From assembly GCA_956465555.1 (NCBI GenBank), contig OY101124.1, forward strand, positions 992,001-1,056,000: DNA of 64,000 bases. Direction: 5' to 3'. Positions 19,109-28,159 of the stretch are shown here, one piece after another. Under the pieces are notes generated by a model. It worked only from the letters and a program-made list of their open reading frames with translations. It had not been told where the DNA came from and did not search any database. Every line of letters starts with the position of its first letter. The stretch's first letter is position 1. The stretch is from Nitzschia sp. pyKryTriq1. Its lineage: Eukaryota > Bacillariophyta > Bacillariophyceae > Bacillariales > Bacillariaceae. Both the position numbers and the translations under genes were made by a program.

Positions 19109-22100
19109 ATGAGTGGAGGAGGCCGCATCGGTTCTACCGCCTGGGAGTATCCACGACGAGACGATGATTCATCAAGTGATGACAGCAGTTCTTCTTCGTC
19201 CTCCTCGTCAGAAGATTTTGTGACTGCCTTGTCGACAAATACTAATACAAGTCCAAATACAACTCTCGGTCATTTCATTCGCAGACATAAATTTGATGCA
19301 GCCTTGAAACGTGTGCGAAGCTGCCCAGAGGACGCGAAAGTTTGGCTCGAGATCCCCGGGGCGAAAAGTCGTCCATCAGCACCGTCTTCTTCGCGCGCCT
19401 CTTGTACTTGCTATAATGATTCCCTTTCGCGGCAGGATTCTTGGCCACAGTTTGGCCGAGCCCACCAGAAGCGACAGCGATTGCTGAGAAGGCGACGGCA
19501 GCAGGATGAGACAAATGTCCCACCTACTACTACTACGATTCGACAGCTTCCCCTCCATTTGGCGTGTCATCATTTATCCATGTCGAAGAATGCCAAGCAG
19601 ACTTCCATGATACAAACATCCATGTTGGGGTCTTCAAAACAGTTGGAAGGGTTGATACGAGAATTGGTGGCGGCGTATGGCATGGCTTGTTCCGAACCGG
19701 ATGGGTACGGACGATTGCCTTTGCACGAAGCGATAGCATGGGGAGCTTCTATAAATGTGATTTCTCTGATACTCATGGCATGGCCGCAGGCTTTGTACCA
19801 GCGAGACTCGTCGGGATGGCTGCCCTCGGAACGAAATGCCATGCTGGAGCGTGCAGACAAAGAAAAAGTGGACCAAGTCTTGCGTCAAGGAGCCCAGGCT
19901 TACGAAGACTCTCGTAAGGAAGCCATGCTACGGTTTCAGTTGGCCATTCATAGGAACAATACTCGGACAAATAATGATATCACAGAGTCTGTTCTCAAGC
20001 TGGCGGATGTACTGGAGATGGCATCTGCGAAGGGCCCGTTCAGTCGCCGGAAAGATGAAGAACACGACGACGAAGCCGTCATTCCCTACACGACGAGAGT
20101 CCTCTCAGATGTGTATGCGCGCAACAAAATGCTAGCAGAGGCACTTGTTTCCATTTCGGCTTCACAGGAGAATGCTCAATCACCTGCCGAGGCCGTCAGC
20201 AGTCAGCGCATGTATGATCTGGAAGATGAGAATGTCGATCTGAAGCGGAGGTTGCATCAACAAGAGTTGGTCTTCCACGATTATGGCTTCGATGCGTCTG
20301 GAAATCCCTTATCAATGGATCGTTCGGGCGGAGAACAAGCCATGTCCATGATGAGTATGGATCCTGAGCCACCCACAGTACTCACTAAGTATCTGGAGAC
20401 CAAGGTCAGCGAGCTTGCCGAAGAAAATGACAATTTGGAATCAGAAAACGAGGACCAGCGCCTTCAAATTGAAGGCTTACAGCAGACGATTATGAAACTA
20501 GAAAGGGACAAGCAGTCAACCAAAGAAGCTGCCGCTGACAAAATCCCCAGTGGCCCGTCCGAACAAGAGCTATTGCTTTCCCAACGCGTCGCCTTACTCG
20601 AGCAGCAGCTCTCGGAAGCCCAAGCAGAATGTGCGCTGTTAAGAGACGAGGTTGCCGAAATAACAAGCAAGGTAGAAGACGAAGAGCTTTCAGATTCCCA
20701 CGCTGACGATGAGGATGACGTCGTCCCTTCTATGCCACAGACGAAGCCTGACCCGAGACGGGAAATTCTCAGGAAAAGCTCGCACTCGTTAGAAGACCAA
20801 TTGAAGATAGTTGATCGAATTTCGGCTCACGGAAATAGCGAACCATTACTTGCGACTAATATTGTCCGCACCCCCCACAGTGAGACAAGAATGAAAAGAC
20901 GAATGTCGTTGGGGGACCAGTTGAAAGAGATTAACCGTCGGTCCGAACATGGTATTGAGCCCTTGGTGGTCGAGAGGGAAGAAAAGGAACGACATTCGGG
21001 GAATCTCCAGGGTCGACCCCTCGCCCGAGAGACTTTCCCTGAAAATCGAGATCATAATGAGGCGGAGTTGTTAAAACGGAAGGATGTATTGGAAATGGAT
21101 CAACCGCCCGATGATAACGACGACGGTGAAGCGTCCTTTTTTGAAGGGCACGAATCCTTCCAGACGGGGGTCGGGTCTCATGCAACTGGGGTTGCGTCTC
21201 ATGCAACTGGTAAAGCAAGTCACAGCTCCAGGGTTTCCTCGACAAGCTGGGGGATGTTGAGTCTTGCGCAAAAGTCCCCGCGAAAAACCGTGCGGTCAAA
21301 ATGGTCGACACCAACTCCACTTGCGACGCTCCCGCAAGGCAATGACTCGAAAGATTCATTTGCCTCCTTTCAAACGGAAGCGTTTCATGATTCATTCGAC
21401 ACCTTCATTGGAGACAAAGAGCTGGAAGTGGATGTCCTCGAAGATCTTTACAAGTCAGCAACCGATATCTTTAACAATGCCAAGGAAGGGAAGATTGCTT
21501 TTGACGGGCATCAGTCACTTTCTGTGTTCAACACCGGTAGACCCAACAAAAAGAATCGTAAGAAGAAACCGAGGCGGAATTCTGACGGTGGTGCCTCACC
21601 TGCAGTTTCCAAAATCAGGAAGCAAACTTCACGAAAACCGAAGAGGGAATCGGAGACACTTGTGGAGACCGCGAGATTGCTTGCTGCCGAGGAGGAAATC
21701 ATCGACATCATCAAGTGTACAGAGGATAATTTGCACATTCAACTTTCGGATGAACTTGTAGCAGTGTTACGGGAGGCGTCGTTGGATAGAGTATTGGCCG
21801 AAAGGCAGCTGGAGTCTGGAACCCCCCACGCGAAAACGCAAAGTCCTCACCCCGTGGCAGAAGCAATCATAGAATACAAACTAATTGACGAGGCCGAGAA
21901 AAGATATGGGAAGACTATTCCTTCTGATGTCGTGTTTGCTCTCCGGGCAGCGGCTATTTCCTGTGTCGAAACATCACGCCAAGAAATCGAGGCCATGGAG
22001 CTTACGAAGAGAAGACTTGAAAAGGAATTGTTGGACGCTTTAATCGAGACTTCGGAAAGGCAGCTACACAAGTCTTTGCCATTTGAAATCACGCTTGCTC

Positions 22101-25100
22101 TTCGAGGTGCGGCTACATCTTTCCAATCTCTCCTGCAGGAACGCTTTGACAAGGACGGTCATCTTACGTCTATTAATTTGAATTTCAAGGAGCTGGACCG
22201 AATGTTTGACAAAGCACAAAAAGCACTTGGGGAACCCTTCTCAAAAGAATTGATTGTCGCTCTGCGACGGAGTTCGTTTGTTCTCCAGTCTAGATTGGAG
22301 GGCACAGACTTCAGCGCCGCGCAGGAATCTAGTGAGAGGTCAAAACACACTACACCAGAATCTCCATCACAATCTGGGTCTGATCGTCGAAGTGTCTCGG
22401 CGGTCGCGATCTCCAGTCACATCAGCGAGAAGCCTGCAAGTACTATCCATTATTCGCCTAGAGCAACGGTACCTCACTACGCTCCAAGATACCAGAATGG
22501 AATTATGGATAGTCCAAGCGTTGCAGAAAGTAGAACCGATGTCTCGTTGCAGCTCACATCGCTCTTCCCAACTTTAGAGCCACCTTTGAAGAGTGGTGGG
22601 CGTTCTGAGAACAAGGACAACCATCAACGCGTGCATCACCGCAACGACGGATCGCCTATAAACCATCCCAGCTCGGAGAAACCGAGGTTGTCATCCTCTC
22701 AAACTGGCCTTGTTGTCCCGATCACGTCTCCCGCCGGTGAAATCAGGACGTTGGGACCAGCGAAGTCGCCGAGCAACAATGTATCATCGAAATCACAAGA
22801 ATTCGACAGCATTGTAAAAGCCGCCAAAGACGTATTGGGTCACGATATAACTCCAGAACTGCTTGAGGCCTTGAAACTCTTGTCGGAAGCATCGTCTAAT
22901 TCTCACAACAGCGGGAAAGTACCGTTGTCCAGGCAACTCAATCGAGCTAGAGCCTCGAAAAGCAATGCAGATGACTATGATGAGACAAGAAGTACTGACA
23001 TGTCAAGGCAAAGTGACACTGCTTCCTTGGACCTTTCGGCTGTTTTCGATCCGGAAGGTTCGAGTGACCTGGAACGAAAGCTGAGAAATCTTGGTCGGCC
23101 GCAGGAACAGAAGACTTCGCGCATTCAAGCCCAAAAGAAAAATGTATCTACAGGCTCAAGGGCCTCAAAAGGTGGAAGTGGCACAGCGCCGTTTGGTTTG
23201 CGAGGGATCCCGACAAACGACAAGAAGATGCTTGGTCGCGGTCGGTCTCCCACTCGCGGTGTGAAAAAAGCCAAGAGTGGAGATATTGATTTGCTTGCCA
23301 GCGCCGCGAAGGTGGTTCCAAGAGCTCGAAGAGCGAAAAGCGCTGAATCTCTTGCGAAATTACCAGAGAAAGTGGGCTCCGACGACCTCGATCAGCTCTA
23401 CAAGCACGCCGTCAATAAAGTTGAGGGTGACGCAACTCTGCTTTCGTCCACGTACCATCTTCAAGATACACAGGGTGACTCAGCTTTTGAAACAATCTTT
23501 TCGGATACAGAAGAAACGTATGGAATCGAAATTCCGCGTGATATCGTTGAAGCACTTAAAAGCACTATATTGGATGCTCTCGAGAGTCCAGGAGATGCTT
23601 CTTTCATCGTTGTGATGAGGTCTTTGCACGATGAAAGTATCATAATGGAAGCAGAACGGCGAGTGGGCAGGGAAATTCCGACAGATCTCGTTGCTGCGAT
23701 CCGCTCAACATCTTTGCCACCAGGCGTTTCCGTGGAGACCCTTCGTCCTCTTGAAGGGTCGTCACGTTTTGTAACTTCGAAGAAGTACAATAGCTCTGCT
23801 GGATCGTTGGCCCTGTCCCTTGCTCTCACCGACTCGTCGAGACGCTCATACACAAATTCGACCCGCTCAACGTTTCTCCGAGGGTCAACGTCTAACCGCG
23901 GTTCTTCGTTAGGAGTTCAGGCCATGGGGATGGGCGATGCTGCAGCACAGAATGGTGCCTCAATGTCAAGCATTTTTTCCATGGGAGATCCATTGGTAGG
24001 CATCCCGGAATCGGATACATCCAAGAATGGACTTGACGCATCCTCGACGCATTCCAACAACAGTTGGGGTGTATTGAGCCTTTCGAAATCGCCATCGAAC
24101 ACAAAGCGGAAAAGGAAAGCGACCAAGAAGTACAAGAAAGGCACGAAAGACGCCATGTTTGAGCGAGCCCAGAAGCGGAAAGAAAAAGTTTCGCAATTCA
24201 TGAACAGTCTTGTTGACTTTGGAAATGAGACAGACGACCTCAAAGACATATTCAAACAAGCCAAGGAGACGCTAGAGGCCGACTCTCCTGTGATTCAGAA
24301 TAGTCGAAAGCAACCTTATGGCACTCGCCCTACGCAAGGACAAGGAAAAGCATCGAATAATGGAAAGTTGCAGGCTGTCATGGAAGGAGAAGGAAGTTCC
24401 GGTTCGATCTTACCAGTCGATACTTATGTCCCCATTCGGGACGGGTCTGTTTCCTGTATAGCTACTTCCCCACAAGAGGCTGAACTGGACATGCTTCTGG
24501 CTAGATTCGAGGAGATCGCTGGAAGACGAGTACCGCAGGAAATCGATACAGCACTTCGCAAAGCTTCGCGGTCGATGGACGAATCGTTGGATATGGTTGC
24601 CCCGCTTACCGCCCTTGCTGAGAATCACAAGTTTGGTTCTGAACTGACAGTTGAGAAACTGCAATTTATATATGGTGAAGCAGAGATTTTCTTAGGGAAG
24701 GGCATTGATCAGGGCATTCTGACAACTTTGATCAGCGCAGCGGAGGACCTGCTTGAACACGAATTGAAGCTAGGTGCTAGCTACGCGTCTATAATGTCGA
24801 CTGAGGACGTTCTTGTTGCACCAATTGAGCCATCTGACAAGAAGCCGACTGATAATTTGGTTGGAGTAACGAACGGAGCTGTGGATGACCTGGGGGCTTT
24901 GTATAAAGCAGCTTACGCCCAGGCCCCCCGCAAGGCACCCATATCTTCCGCAAAGAAACAGTCTGATGCAATCACTCCAAGTTTCCGCGTCCCTGCAAAG
25001 AGTGCCGCTACAAGCTTCAGAGGAGACGAAATCGCAGTTGTTGATGGCAAACAGACTCGGTCAAAGAATCACCCCCCTCCCCTCCTTTCTCCGAAAACAC

Positions 25101-28100
25101 CATCCTTCCAACGTCTGGTACACCCCGTGAGACAGGTTCCCGAGCATCACGATGAGGACATGACCGAGAGTGGAAGGTTCCTCTATGCCGTCTCTCCCAT
25201 GACGGAAGCATCACACTACGCAAACGACAGCTTGGGAGACATGTCTGAAATGATTGATAGTGCGAGGGTCGGTCCCCGGAAATTGAGTAAGGTTCCAATA
25301 CTTGACGACTCTGACGACCAATTGGATTATGAGGAAGATCTATTTGAACCTTCGAATGGAAGTGACGCTGCATCTGAGACGTCAGCAAGCCTCATGGACG
25401 ACGACGAGGATGAAGACGAGGATGAGGATGAGGATGAAGACGAGGATGAAGACGAGGATGAGGACGAATACGAGGATGAGGATGAGCACGAAGATGAGGA
25501 CGAATACGAGGATGGAGCCGAGGCATCGCAGTCTTCAACGAGTCTAGTGGCCGAAGACGAGGATGAGCAAGAAAAAATCCAGAATCAGTATTCTTCCCAC
25601 ACATCTTTGGAATTGGATGCCATTCTCTCAGAAGTTCAAGCGGAGTACGGGATGGAGTTGCCCCCAGAGCTAGTCGAGGCTCTTAAGACTGCGTCTGCTG
25701 GAAGTCTTGATGATTTTGAGGCAAGCGGATCTCACGTATCGTCTCTTATCTCTAAGCACATCGGAGTCGAGGACGACAAATCTTCATCCGAATCGTCACG
25801 CCTTCACGATCTAGTCATGGGAGTACGCGGAAAGCTCAATGATTCCTTTGACGATAATCTTGCAAAGTCAGTTACAGGACGCCTCAGGGTAAATAATTAT
25901 GTGGAAGCTTTGATCAAGACCACCGAAGCTTATTACGGGGAACCGGTCCCTGAGGATGTTTCCAAAGGACTCTGGTACTCCATTCCTCTGTTTTGTATTG
26001 AACACAATTGCCTGGCTCCATCACCGAAAGAGGTTAAAGACATCCTGTCTTCTTTTCCAGAAGAAGTGCAAACGAGCATGCATCCATCGTTGATGGCGTC
26101 AATCGAAAGGGCGTCCCAGGATCTGGTAGTGCCCAGCCATGCAAGTGGTTATTTCAGTGCGGCCAGCACTGAACCAAGCGAGAACGAAGATGGCTCGATG
26201 AAATTCAACGACTTTGTCGTCTCAAGCTTAATCATGGATAGAAATACTGCCCAAGAGTCTCAGAAGGTCGACCGTTACGTCTCGAAAGAATTAATCCACA
26301 AGGTTGATTCAAAAGGAACGCGTGCTATTGGTGAATCAGAACACTCTGCCTTGGCTGGGGCTCGTTTCTCAGGATCAGCTGCACTCGAATATTCTACCGA
26401 ACTTGAGTATTCCCAGTCGACGTTTGCTTCGCTCCCTTTTGGCTCTTCCCACGGCCACGGCAAAACTCCAATGATCCCCGCTGGGCGCAGTCAGTCGCTG
26501 GGAAATGTTAGACTTGAAGAGAGCCTCGGCAGCATCGGCGAAGACACAATACTACAAGGCCTTGACATTTTCCTTGCCGAAGCCGAAAACGAATATGGAC
26601 AACCACTGCCTGATGATCTGATCATTGCATTGAAACAAATGTCAGTGTCATCAGGACTAACTCTTGACCCGGCATTGGTAGATAGCAAGATGCTTGAATC
26701 TGGTGCACTTGGAATTCGGTTATCCCCCAAAATGGCTGGAGCACTTGAACGAGCAGCTTCAAAAACATCCACATCTTTTCCGAAACCTTTTTCCAAATCT
26801 CTTTCACAGGTCCGACAGAACTCGACCATTTCAGCCTTGTCGGGATTTTCGAAGATGTCTGCTTCGGCCGAGAGCCTGAACACTAGCGCCTCATCAGGGT
26901 GGACAACTGCACACGAAGAATCGAAGATAAGCGGTGACGACTCAACCGCTATTAACAGCTTTGCATCGGAAGGCGCATCGGTCCTTAATACTGTAACGGT
27001 GTCTCAATCGCCACCTCCTCCACCCCCGCCACCTCCTCCTCCACCCCCGCCGCCGCCAGCTGAATACGATACATCATCACCGTCCACAAATGCCAGCGCT
27101 GTATCAAGCAAGCCTTTGAACAAGAATCTAGGCCTGAATTTGCTGAAGGAAGTCAAAAAGGTGTACAAGAAGAAGATTCCACTGGAACTCTCCTATGTAC
27201 TTAGCCGTAACCAGGCATTGTCGAATGCAATGAATACGGATGAAGAGATCCAGATCATACTAGAAGAATGTGAAGATATGAGTGGAAAGCGTCTTTCTGC
27301 CGACCTGGTCTTGGCACTCCGAGAAGCGTCCGTGAATGTCCGGGCGCCACCACCTACCTCGAAGTCAAAGAGATCGAAGATGACCAAGCAAGGCTCTGCC
27401 TCTTCGTTCCGTTCCGCTTCAAGGTCTTCCGGAATGCCTAGTATCCAAGAATGGGCAGCAAGTACGGTGACAGATATGAAATCCATGGAAGACGAGAAAC
27501 GCTTCGAAGTAGACCGAGTGCCGTCGTCCTTCGGTCCACTCTCGATTCCTGCGGAAATTGCAGCTGAGGAGCGATCCAACATGGACATTTCGACGCTTAG
27601 GGACAGCCAGCATACTGATGGAACGTCCATTAAGCCTACGAAACAAATCAAATACCGCGACATCACGCCCTCGATCCCACCTGTTGATTATCCAGAACCG
27701 CAGCGGAAGGACAGTGTACATAGCATCGGAGTTGATGATGAACTATTCCAAAGCAGTGGAAATCCTATGAGCCCAACAGGAAAGAGTGGATTTAATGCCA
27801 GTGCCTCTACTATGCTCATATCCAATACTCAGGACCTTCACGGCTCGAAGAATAGGAATCGCCTGCCGAATATTGATCCTATCGTGGACCAAGAAGAACT
27901 TACAGACAGCAACGAGGGTTTGAGCCCATTACGTTCGGAATCCTACGCTAGTCGAAGCAGTTCACAAATATCCGTATCCACCGAAGTTAACACCAACAAT
28001 TCTACCACTGTTTCGGCCGTGGAGGAAGTTTCTCGAGCGTCCACATTACAATCAAGTCGACTGCCTATTGGCGTCAACCCGAGCCCACCTTTGGATGGAG

Positions 28101-28159
28101 TCGAATCCGACGATCTGAGTGCAATTTTCAAGGAAGCCGCGAAACGATTTGCTCATTAA
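19109..28159 (+). CDS. Giant serine-rich protein with 14 copies of an unassigned helical repeat
   Basis: One exon codes 3016 residues. The first ATG is at 19109 (CACCATG); the open frame upstream lacks an ATG. Residues about 145-240 contain ankyrin-like units (QLPLHLACHHL, GRLPLHEAIAWG), and coiled coil is likely at about 370-390 and 430-528. The rest is mostly disordered, broken by at least 14 copies of a 30-35-residue unit: an acidic/hydrophobic helix, Gly, two variable residues, hydrophobic-Pro-x-acidic, then a second helix x-A-L-R/K-x-A/S-S. Copies begin near 21695, 21862, 22024, 22183, 22799, 23480, 23637, 24479, 24659, 25606, 25897, 26551, 27138 and 27243. A second motif, DDLxxLYKxA, lies near 21432, 23378, 24233, 24882 and 28106; the last copy ends the protein. 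An acidic Asp/Glu tract is coded at 25399-25530 and a 16-proline run at 27013-27060. I know no described family covering the repeat. A scaffold or cytoskeletal role is only a guess. Confidence 0.88.
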   Translation: MSGGGRIGSTAWEYPRRDDDSSSDDSSSSSSSSSEDFVTALSTNTNTSPNTTLGHFIRRHKFDAALKRVRSCPEDAKVWLEIPGAKSRPSAPSSSRASCTCYNDSLSRQDSWPQFGRAHQKRQRLLRRRRQQDETNVPPTTTTIRQLPLHLACHHLSMSKNAKQTSMIQTSMLGSSKQLEGLIRELVAAYGMACSEPDGYGRLPLHEAIAWGASINVISLILMAWPQALYQRDSSGWLPSERNAMLERADKEKVDQVLRQGAQAYEDSRKEAMLRFQLAIHRNNTRTNNDITESVLKLADVLEMASAKGPFSRRKDEEHDDEAVIPYTTRVLSDVYARNKMLAEALVSISASQENAQSPAEAVSSQRMYDLEDENVDLKRRLHQQELVFHDYGFDASGNPLSMDRSGGEQAMSMMSMDPEPPTVLTKYLETKVSELAEENDNLESENEDQRLQIEGLQQTIMKLERDKQSTKEAAADKIPSGPSEQELLLSQRVALLEQQLSEAQAECALLRDEVAEITSKVEDEELSDSHADDEDDVVPSMPQTKPDPRREILRKSSHSLEDQLKIVDRISAHGNSEPLLATNIVRTPHSETRMKRRMSLGDQLKEINRRSEHGIEPLVVEREEKERHSGNLQGRPLARETFPENRDHNEAELLKRKDVLEMDQPPDDNDDGEASFFEGHESFQTGVGSHATGVASHATGKASHSSRVSSTSWGMLSLAQKSPRKTVRSKWSTPTPLATLPQGNDSKDSFASFQTEAFHDSFDTFIGDKELEVDVLEDLYKSATDIFNNAKEGKIAFDGHQSLSVFNTGRPNKKNRKKKPRRNSDGGASPAVSKIRKQTSRKPKRESETLVETARLLAAEEEIIDIIKCTEDNLHIQLSDELVAVLREASLDRVLAERQLESGTPHAKTQSPHPVAEAIIEYKLIDEAEKRYGKTIPSDVVFALRAAAISCVETSRQEIEAMELTKRRLEKELLDALIETSERQLHKSLPFEITLALRGAATSFQSLLQERFDKDGHLTSINLNFKELDRMFDKAQKALGEPFSKELIVALRRSSFVLQSRLEGTDFSAAQESSERSKHTTPESPSQSGSDRRSVSAVAISSHISEKPASTIHYSPRATVPHYAPRYQNGIMDSPSVAESRTDVSLQLTSLFPTLEPPLKSGGRSENKDNHQRVHHRNDGSPINHPSSEKPRLSSSQTGLVVPITSPAGEIRTLGPAKSPSNNVSSKSQEFDSIVKAAKDVLGHDITPELLEALKLLSEASSNSHNSGKVPLSRQLNRARASKSNADDYDETRSTDMSRQSDTASLDLSAVFDPEGSSDLERKLRNLGRPQEQKTSRIQAQKKNVSTGSRASKGGSGTAPFGLRGIPTNDKKMLGRGRSPTRGVKKAKSGDIDLLASAAKVVPRARRAKSAESLAKLPEKVGSDDLDQLYKHAVNKVEGDATLLSSTYHLQDTQGDSAFETIFSDTEETYGIEIPRDIVEALKSTILDALESPGDASFIVVMRSLHDESIIMEAERRVGREIPTDLVAAIRSTSLPPGVSVETLRPLEGSSRFVTSKKYNSSAGSLALSLALTDSSRRSYTNSTRSTFLRGSTSNRGSSLGVQAMGMGDAAAQNGASMSSIFSMGDPLVGIPESDTSKNGLDASSTHSNNSWGVLSLSKSPSNTKRKRKATKKYKKGTKDAMFERAQKRKEKVSQFMNSLVDFGNETDDLKDIFKQAKETLEADSPVIQNSRKQPYGTRPTQGQGKASNNGKLQAVMEGEGSSGSILPVDTYVPIRDGSVSCIATSPQEAELDMLLARFEEIAGRRVPQEIDTALRKASRSMDESLDMVAPLTALAENHKFGSELTVEKLQFIYGEAEIFLGKGIDQGILTTLISAAEDLLEHELKLGASYASIMSTEDVLVAPIEPSDKKPTDNLVGVTNGAVDDLGALYKAAYAQAPRKAPISSAKKQSDAITPSFRVPAKSAATSFRGDEIAVVDGKQTRSKNHPPPLLSPKTPSFQRLVHPVRQVPEHHDEDMTESGRFLYAVSPMTEASHYANDSLGDMSEMIDSARVGPRKLSKVPILDDSDDQLDYEEDLFEPSNGSDAASETSASLMDDDEDEDEDEDEDEDEDEDEDEDEYEDEDEHEDEDEYEDGAEASQSSTSLVAEDEDEQEKIQNQYSSHTSLELDAILSEVQAEYGMELPPELVEALKTASAGSLDDFEASGSHVSSLISKHIGVEDDKSSSESSRLHDLVMGVRGKLNDSFDDNLAKSVTGRLRVNNYVEALIKTTEAYYGEPVPEDVSKGLWYSIPLFCIEHNCLAPSPKEVKDILSSFPEEVQTSMHPSLMASIERASQDLVVPSHASGYFSAASTEPSENEDGSMKFNDFVVSSLIMDRNTAQESQKVDRYVSKELIHKVDSKGTRAIGESEHSALAGARFSGSAALEYSTELEYSQSTFASLPFGSSHGHGKTPMIPAGRSQSLGNVRLEESLGSIGEDTILQGLDIFLAEAENEYGQPLPDDLIIALKQMSVSSGLTLDPALVDSKMLESGALGIRLSPKMAGALERAASKTSTSFPKPFSKSLSQVRQNSTISALSGFSKMSASAESLNTSASSGWTTAHEESKISGDDSTAINSFASEGASVLNTVTVSQSPPPPPPPPPPPPPPPPAEYDTSSPSTNASAVSSKPLNKNLGLNLLKEVKKVYKKKIPLELSYVLSRNQALSNAMNTDEEIQIILEECEDMSGKRLSADLVLALREASVNVRAPPPTSKSKRSKMTKQGSASSFRSASRSSGMPSIQEWAASTVTDMKSMEDEKRFEVDRVPSSFGPLSIPAEIAAEERSNMDISTLRDSQHTDGTSIKPTKQIKYRDITPSIPPVDYPEPQRKDSVHSIGVDDELFQSSGNPMSPTGKSGFNASASTMLISNTQDLHGSKNRNRLPNIDPIVDQEELTDSNEGLSPLRSESYASRSSSQISVSTEVNTNNSTTVSAVEEVSRASTLQSSRLPIGVNPSPPLDGVESDDLSAIFKEAAKRFAH
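25399..25530 (+). repeat. Coding GA(C/T)GA(G/A) repeat giving an Asp/Glu tract
   Basis: A near-perfect alternation of GAC or GAT with GAG or GAA codes about 40 residues of DEDEDE, with scattered Tyr and His in the second half. The tract stays in frame and is a likely site of length polymorphism. Confidence 0.85.

Follow-up and report, generated by a model that had tools for sequence, protein, structure and literature searches.

An uninterrupted open reading frame (ORF) of 3016 codons, located in a 64,000-nucleotide stretch of contig OY101124.1 from the diatom Nitzschia sp. pyKryTriq1 (hereafter the window), carries 14 copies of a repeated unit of about 30 residues. The unit is read as a helix, Tyr/Leu-Gly, two variable residues, Ile/Leu-Pro and a second helix ending in ALR-x-A-S. 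The repeat is real, and judging from its sequence pattern each unit probably folds as two short packed helices, forming a helical hairpin. The gene lies at 19109..28159 of the window on the + strand, as do all features of the protein described below. The ORF starts at ATG 19109 or at TTG 19028, 27 codons upstream, and its stop is at 28159. The predicted protein has a computed pI of 5.18 and a mass of 330 kDa, and homologues were found. We tentatively interpret it as a large acidic, largely disordered scaffold with an old array of helix-turn-helix hairpins, in which close hairpins would bundle and the whole chain would act as a multivalent organizer. Large proteins of unknown function in algae have been little studied. 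Should the units fold as proposed, they would constitute a short helical repeat not described before, set in a giant protein in which the order of the array persisted as the linkers diverged. Such a protein would also add a scaffold architecture, with hairpins grouped along a largely disordered chain, that offers a clear experimental handle.

Detection and age of the repeat array

The set of units comprised 13 sites obtained with a loose pattern and one site, unit 9 (residue 1876 of P0001), that was added by eye. P0001 denotes the window's protein numbered from the TTG codon, so that its residue numbers are 27 higher than in the 3016-aa numbering. In leave-one-out scoring, all 14 units (5.3 to 41.1 bits) exceeded the best off-unit position, i.e. 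one more than 31 residues from any unit start, which scored −0.8 bits or lower in every run. When the protein was shuffled 20 times, 13 of the 14 units scored higher than the best shuffle and unit 9 scored lower (6.9 versus 12.8 bits). The 14-unit profile gave 13 to 15 matches per protein (independent E-value (i-E) <0.05) in six homologues, whereas 42 shuffled or reversed controls yielded no match. Profiles made separately for each array position were compared by hhalign, and the probability was ≥90 in 54 and ≥50 in 76 of the 91 pairs. Leave-one-out scoring, shuffled controls and the independent per-position profiles thus agree on one repeated unit in at least 14 copies, as the original prediction had claimed, and a profile built from the units recovers the others above background. 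The other units are 16 to 47% identical to unit 1.

The first four units form a cluster at 21698..21787, 21872..21961, 22031..22120 and 22193..22282; all are supported by leave-one-out scoring and the profile, and units 2 and 3 also by spacing. Unit 5 (22802..22891; leave-one-out and profile) is single and has an aligned member in 6 of 10 proteins. Units 6 (23486..23575) and 7 (23630..23719) constitute a pair, as do units 8 (24485..24574) and 9 (24659..24748). Leave-one-out scoring, profile and spacing all support units 6, 7 and 8, and unit 9 is supported by profile and spacing. The remaining units are supported by leave-one-out scoring and the profile throughout. Among them are unit 10 (25613..25702), which has the top score, unit 11 (25901..25990), which has the lowest conservation of the 14, and unit 12 (26561..26650). 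The last pair consists of unit 13 (27131..27220), whose profile is the most divergent in the hhalign comparison, and unit 14 (27248..27337), the most highly conserved.

Homologues were sought in three protein searches, each scoring only about 8000 candidates that shared most words. Nine long homologues, P0002 to P0010 (2003 to 3359 aa; P0010 is partial), and one fragment were obtained, and no second full-length copy was found in the genome. An iterated profile detected 135 units at i-E 0.01 in the ten proteins P0001 to P0010 (14, 14, 14, 13, 15, 14, 14, 14, 14 and 9, respectively). The ungapped units number 133, and 128 of them align within three columns of a unit in the window. Of these 128, 126 have their closest relative at the same array position of another protein, and none has it within its own protein. 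Therefore, the array is old: it predates the split of these proteins and was not homogenized later. This supports the earlier suggestion of old duplications, the copies having stayed in place. Mean pairwise identity among seven proteins is 0.56 within the units, compared with 0.30 elsewhere in the array region.

The remaining five ungapped units occupy two extra slots, after units 11 and 12, and a third extra slot was also detected. All three look decayed in the window's protein and are probably decayed units. Slot 11b (26063..26125) retains the second helix only and is fuller in P0005, P0006 and P0007. Slot 11c, placed approximately at 26225..26299 because its match in the window was made by eye, is fuller in P0002, P0005, P0006, P0007 and P0008, and slot 12b (26669..26764) is full in P0007 and P0008. 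With these three slots, decayed in the window and fuller in some homologues, the original array may have numbered about 17 units.

Probable hairpin fold and grouping of the units

Across the 133 units, the strongest columns of the first half are the hydrophobic columns 7 and 8, Ala-rich column 11, Glu-rich column 12, Tyr/Leu at 15 and Gly at 16 (80%). In the second half they are the hydrophobic column 19 (100%), Pro 20 (71%), Glu/Asp 22 (78%) and Leu 23, and the end of helix 2 is marked by Ala 26, Leu 27, Arg/Lys 28 (78%), Ala 30 and Ser 31. No column is invariant. Proline occupies 0 of the 2660 cells in helix columns 8-17 and 22-31, which were picked after the profile had been seen, compared with a background of 5.4% in these proteins. 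Helix 1 is amphipathic, with a moment that was reached by 81 of 5000 permutations. Units mostly appear folded according to the charge-hydropathy index, which was above 0 in 125 of 128 units versus 135 of 434 linker segments of 30 residues. From the exclusion of proline from the helix columns and the hydrophobic pattern we infer a helix-turn-helix hairpin.

In such a hairpin, helix 1 would be amphipathic, about 12 residues long and capped by Tyr/Leu-Gly, with a tight turn of the form x-x-Ile/Leu; Pro would then open helix 2 (E/D-L-V-x-A-L-R-x-A-S). Close hairpins (1-4, 6-7, 8-9 and 13-14) would pack as small helical bundles, with units 5, 10 and 12 being more isolated. As the folded and sticky segments of the chain, the hairpins would bind partners or one another. 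Together with contacts contributed by the ankyrin-like and coiled-coil N-terminus, this would result in a multivalent organizer. The makeup of the chain, which is long and largely disordered, carries conserved and probably folded hairpins, and has an ankyrin-like/coiled-coil end, is as expected for a multivalent scaffold. The bundles are what we infer here; the scaffold role, the partners, the location and any condensate behavior are guesses.

The spacing of the units, counted from start to start, bears on this grouping. Units 8 and 9 are separated by 58 residues in all 10 proteins, units 13 and 14 by 39 residues in 8 of 8 counted proteins, units 2 and 3 by 53 residues in 8 of 9 proteins (56 in the ninth), and units 6 and 7 by 45-48 residues in all 10. 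The distance is 49-58 residues from unit 3 to 4 and 48-59 from unit 1 to 2 (9 proteins each). From unit 10 to 11 it is 89-114 residues (8 proteins), and each of the remaining six gaps measures between 132 and 429 residues, the linkers between clusters in that range being Ser-rich. The description of the copies as separated by long disordered stretches therefore applies to part of the array but not to 6 of the 13 gaps, which measure only 39-59 residues. Because six gaps are short and four of these are nearly constant, it is probable that some of the units group into modules. Conserved islands also include the connectors around units 2-4, 8-9 and 13-14.

Several observations weigh against a chain of bundled hairpins. 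The coefficients of variation of the gaps from 1 to 2 (0.061) and from 3 to 4 (0.049) are comparable to those of long gaps (0.068 for 5 to 6, 0.071 for 10 to 11 and 0.075 for 11 to 12). Since the former two vary relatively about as much as long gaps, only four gaps clearly have a fixed geometry. Units rejected by the profile or alignment filter do not enter the spacing counts, and the count for 13 to 14 omits two of the 10 proteins, including P0005, where unit 13 is gapped. Among 19 comparisons of unit-pair profiles that had no unit in common, 14 gave an alignment across both units (for example 3-4 versus 8-9, 91 columns, probability 97.4), which does not establish duplication of whole modules because two successive unit matches give the same result. 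Unit 13 is an outlier in the hhalign comparison, with most of its matches to other positions below 50. The moment of helix 2 is unexceptional, being reached by 796 of 5000 permutations, and about one third of the 30-residue linker segments are not called unfolded.

Alternatively, each unit could act on its own as a short docking motif within a disordered chain, folding only upon partner binding, with the close spacing being incidental. The four nearly or fully constant gaps and the conserved connectors speak against such motifs, and the two-helix pattern with its capped turn suggests self-packing. Independent docking would, however, suit units of only about 30 residues, three of which (5, 10 and 12) are without a close neighbor in the window, as well as the six long gaps and the gaps 1-2 and 3-4, which are relatively no tighter than some long ones. 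We regard this explanation as unlikely, although it is the most serious of the competing ones.

A single long alpha-solenoid, in which all hairpins stack and the linkers are bulging loops, is improbable. Hairpin repeats of about this length form solenoids in other families, and units 1 to 4 recur every 48 to 59 residues. The long Ser-rich linkers between clusters speak against stacking of the whole array. No Pfam family passes its cut-off in the window's protein, and the only repeat-like match with the quartet of units is a weak one to DUF3458_C ARM repeats (E 0.035, 1 of 9 quartets).

Resemblance to known families

As far as the libraries and the literature used can tell, the family looks undescribed. 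The window's protein matched no NCBIfam model at E up to 1, in addition to lacking a Pfam match over cut-off, and among the paper titles and abstract beginnings listed none concerned this protein, which is a weak negative. The original prediction, in which no described family with this unit was recognized, holds for the window's protein but needs a qualification: models of SMI1_KNR4, a SUKH family, touch some units and quartets, and homologue P0002 just reaches the SMI1_KNR4 cut-off.

No Pfam family touches more units than SMI1_KNR4 (SUKH-1, PF09346), with 7 of 98 at E up to 1 (best E 0.014); among the quartets it touches 3 of 9 under the same limit (best E 0.0085). It was also found in 4 of 6 homologues scanned whole, at positions 6-38 (P0002), 7-29 (P0008), 7-53 (P0005) and 7-35 (P0006) of the 125 profile positions. 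In P0002 the score of 25.4 bits equals the cut-off exactly, by summing of partial matches, and no single stretch passes. The longest match to the SUKH clan is to SUKH_6 in P0002, with 57 residues covering positions 4-60 of 119 (E 0.002). Comparison of the units with four SUKH proteins by hhalign resulted in a probability of 35 and a score of 20.3; 100 column-permuted controls reached 15.9 at most and the reversed profile 10.7. The window's own protein had no SUKH match at E up to 10, and a search for PF09346 in this genome gave nothing at E up to 10.

The likeness consists mainly of a helix, a Gly or its equivalent at the turn, two residues, Leu/Phe-Pro and a helix, which are alike in order and spacing. 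However, SUKH forms a single complete domain spanning 125 profile positions, whereas here there are 14 units and the matches cover only 23 to 47 positions. In 4 of 4 aligned SUKH proteins N-G-G follows helix 2, whereas the units end in A-L-R-x-A-S, and their columns 30-33 (133 units) are mostly Ala, Ser, hydrophobic and variable, not N-G-G. Membership in SUKH was rejected, as the similarity is local and weak and both the full domain and N-G-G are absent. The same turn pattern joins two helices in solved SUKH and acyl carrier protein folds, which favors the hairpin reading of the units. We read the SUKH likeness as a supersecondary pattern held in common; actual descent from SUKH is possible, though less probable.

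One form of such descent would make the units remnants of SUKH (SMI1/KNR4) domains that lost all but their first two helices, which then multiplied. It is the frequency of the SMI1_KNR4 matches, the score of P0002 at the cut-off and an hhalign score above all 100 permuted controls that speak for relics, to be set against an hhalign probability of only 35, the lack of matches in the window's protein and in the genome, and the lack of a conserved SUKH-length stretch after the units. The turn pattern is also not special to SUKH, because 4 of 98 units touch PP-binding too. We consider SUKH relics quite improbable. That unrelated amphipathic helices came to be alike through chance or convergence, as the lack of an invariant column, the low identities to unit 1 and the score of unit 9 below the best shuffle might suggest, is made very improbable by the leave-one-out recovery, the empty shuffled controls and the independent profile matches.

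The PP-binding family (PF00550), which includes acyl carrier protein, resembles the units locally around E-x-x-F-G-I-x-I-P-x-E. Its touches on the 4 units are at E up to 1, and the solved acyl carrier protein structure 2ehs was matched at E 0.22. The PP-binding matches differ from the family in that they cover roughly half its length (positions 31-61 of 67 in P0002). Membership was rejected because the match is partial and because Ser at the attachment place (unit column 1, assigned by eye) occurs in only 21 of 133 units. The case shows that a match to SUKH or to a carrier protein can come from a shared turn pattern. Other Pfam touches on single units (Phi-29_GP16_7 on 3 of 98, RHH_3 on 2 and UBA_Rad5 on 2) were taken as chance, as were eleven families that touch one unit each, including BRR2_plug, which has the lowest E of the table (0.0021). 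Helix 2 contains L-x2-A-L, which we take to be a pattern like that of the ubiquitin-interacting motif; this motif was absent among the Pfam matches, most weak ones of which are dropped by the HMMER filters.

Searches of solved structures had best E-values of 0.011 and 0.017 with unit profiles, 0.36 with the quartet and 0.054 with the pair 8-9, the last to a designed protein. No consistent fold emerged, and none recurred except designed helical proteins. Families of TPR-like helical hairpins share units of about 30 residues with two helices in many copies. None is over cut-off here, however, and the present copies are grouped or single rather than in one continuous array.

Other genes with the unit were sought in the genome: a hand-made consensus gave 7 matches and a unit 2 query gave 2, all of them in this ORF; this is a weak negative because half of the 14 known units escaped the consensus. 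Locus L020 (G000:C3:773600-776200, minus strand) contains a low-complexity open frame of 543 aa that ends in an ungapped match to a whole unit with 24.3 bits, by eye nearest to unit 2. The next best score among 168,341 translated residues outside this gene's frame was 6.7 bits. The locus stays a lead because it was picked from a genome-wide list, as one of the 15 other places scored with the whole protein (E 0.12), and scores below the lowest of the 128 units (25.3). Scans of viral contigs (quartet and pair) and of prokaryote contigs (quartet only), with two short patterns per scan, confirmed no relative.

A functional parallel is offered by PYCO1, the Rubisco linker of Phaeodactylum tricornutum, which likewise is a mostly disordered diatom repeat protein with repeated stickers (PMC10288592). 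PYCO1 has a predicted transit peptide, a pI of 10.03, KWSP stickers and six repeats, each about 80 residues long (PMC10288592). The protein described here differs in its pI of 5.18 and its 30-residue units, and among its 12 Trp contexts there is no KWSP and one KWST. Being acidic and without the KWSP motif, it is on this evidence not a relative of PYCO1. By analogy, PYCO1 shows that a multivalent sticker logic of the kind suggested here exists in diatoms (PMC10288592).

Further motifs and genomic surroundings

A second motif, DDLxxLYKxA, of the single-helix type, occurs in about five copies in the protein. They are located at 21431..21478 (DVLEDLYKSA), 23381..23431, 24233..24283, 24884..24931 and 28109..28156, the last being the C-terminus of the protein (DDLSAIFKEAAKRF). 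A form of the motif lies at the C-terminus or a few residues from it in 9 of 9 long homologues. The resemblance of the motif to helix 1 of the unit is only suggestive: scored as a half-unit, it reaches helix-1 scores of 1.9 to 14.9, compared with shuffled maxima that have a mean of 8.5, a 95% value of 12.0 and a top of 14.0. P0004 has three clustered copies (DDLDALYKKA, DNLDEIYKAA and DDLGAMYRAA) in residues 1899-2007, in place of the window's single copy.

The end of helix 2 often has the form basic-x-x-Ser/Thr, which we take to be a possible kinase site. It is kept in unit 5 in 6 of 6 proteins, in unit 7 in 9 of 10, and in units 8 and 14 in 10 of 10 each. Overall it occurs in 73 of 133 units, versus 69.6 expected from independent columns, so that there is no linkage beyond the columns themselves. 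One could imagine the protein as a self-assembling network former. Hairpin modules would serve as receptors and the DDLxxLYKxA helices, including the C-terminal one, as ligands that complete or displace a helix in the same or other molecules, and kinases would switch these contacts via the basic-x-x-Ser end that helix 2 has in several units. We regard this elaboration as speculative and quite improbable.

The N-terminal part contains an ankyrin-like region at 19673..19825, which is a conserved island. Its best family, Ank_5, was matched at E 0.075 and missed the Pfam cut-off (13.9 versus 27 bits). The ankyrin likeness consists of the conserved pattern and of genome matches clustering in this region: a genome search with the whole protein (106 candidates) scored the gene itself and 15 other places, 12 of which match the same region. 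A conserved island at 20345..20707 comprises the SMMSMDPEPPTVLTKYLETKV segment and a probable coiled coil; the conserved PEPPTVLTKYLETKV segment runs into this coiled coil, which was judged by eye. An acidic low-complexity run is present at 25397..25513 and a run of 16 prolines, ahead of unit 13, at 27011..27058. The short island SWGxLSL occurs twice, at 21245-21265 and 24062-24082, and both sites are conserved in homologues.

Ten neighboring frames were scanned in the window between 4639 and 45205. The matches included an Ssl1-like TFIIH subunit, a GFO/IDH/MocA oxidoreductase, endonuclease V, a multi-PAS protein, the N-domain of a ribose-phosphate pyrophosphokinase and a RING-finger protein. 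One PDZ match was just below its cut-off, and 3 of the 10 frames were without a match. The silicon-transporter family PF03842 matched eight loci in the same assembly (40.65 Mb), with E <1e-261 at seven of them and 2.4e-134 at the eighth; 1 of 14 prokaryote controls matched, under the cut-off. These loci are strong though not final evidence of a diatom host, because silicon transporters are also present in a few other eukaryotes. Five of the eight loci are on G000 contig C1 at 79892-317295, four of them inside about 42 kb.

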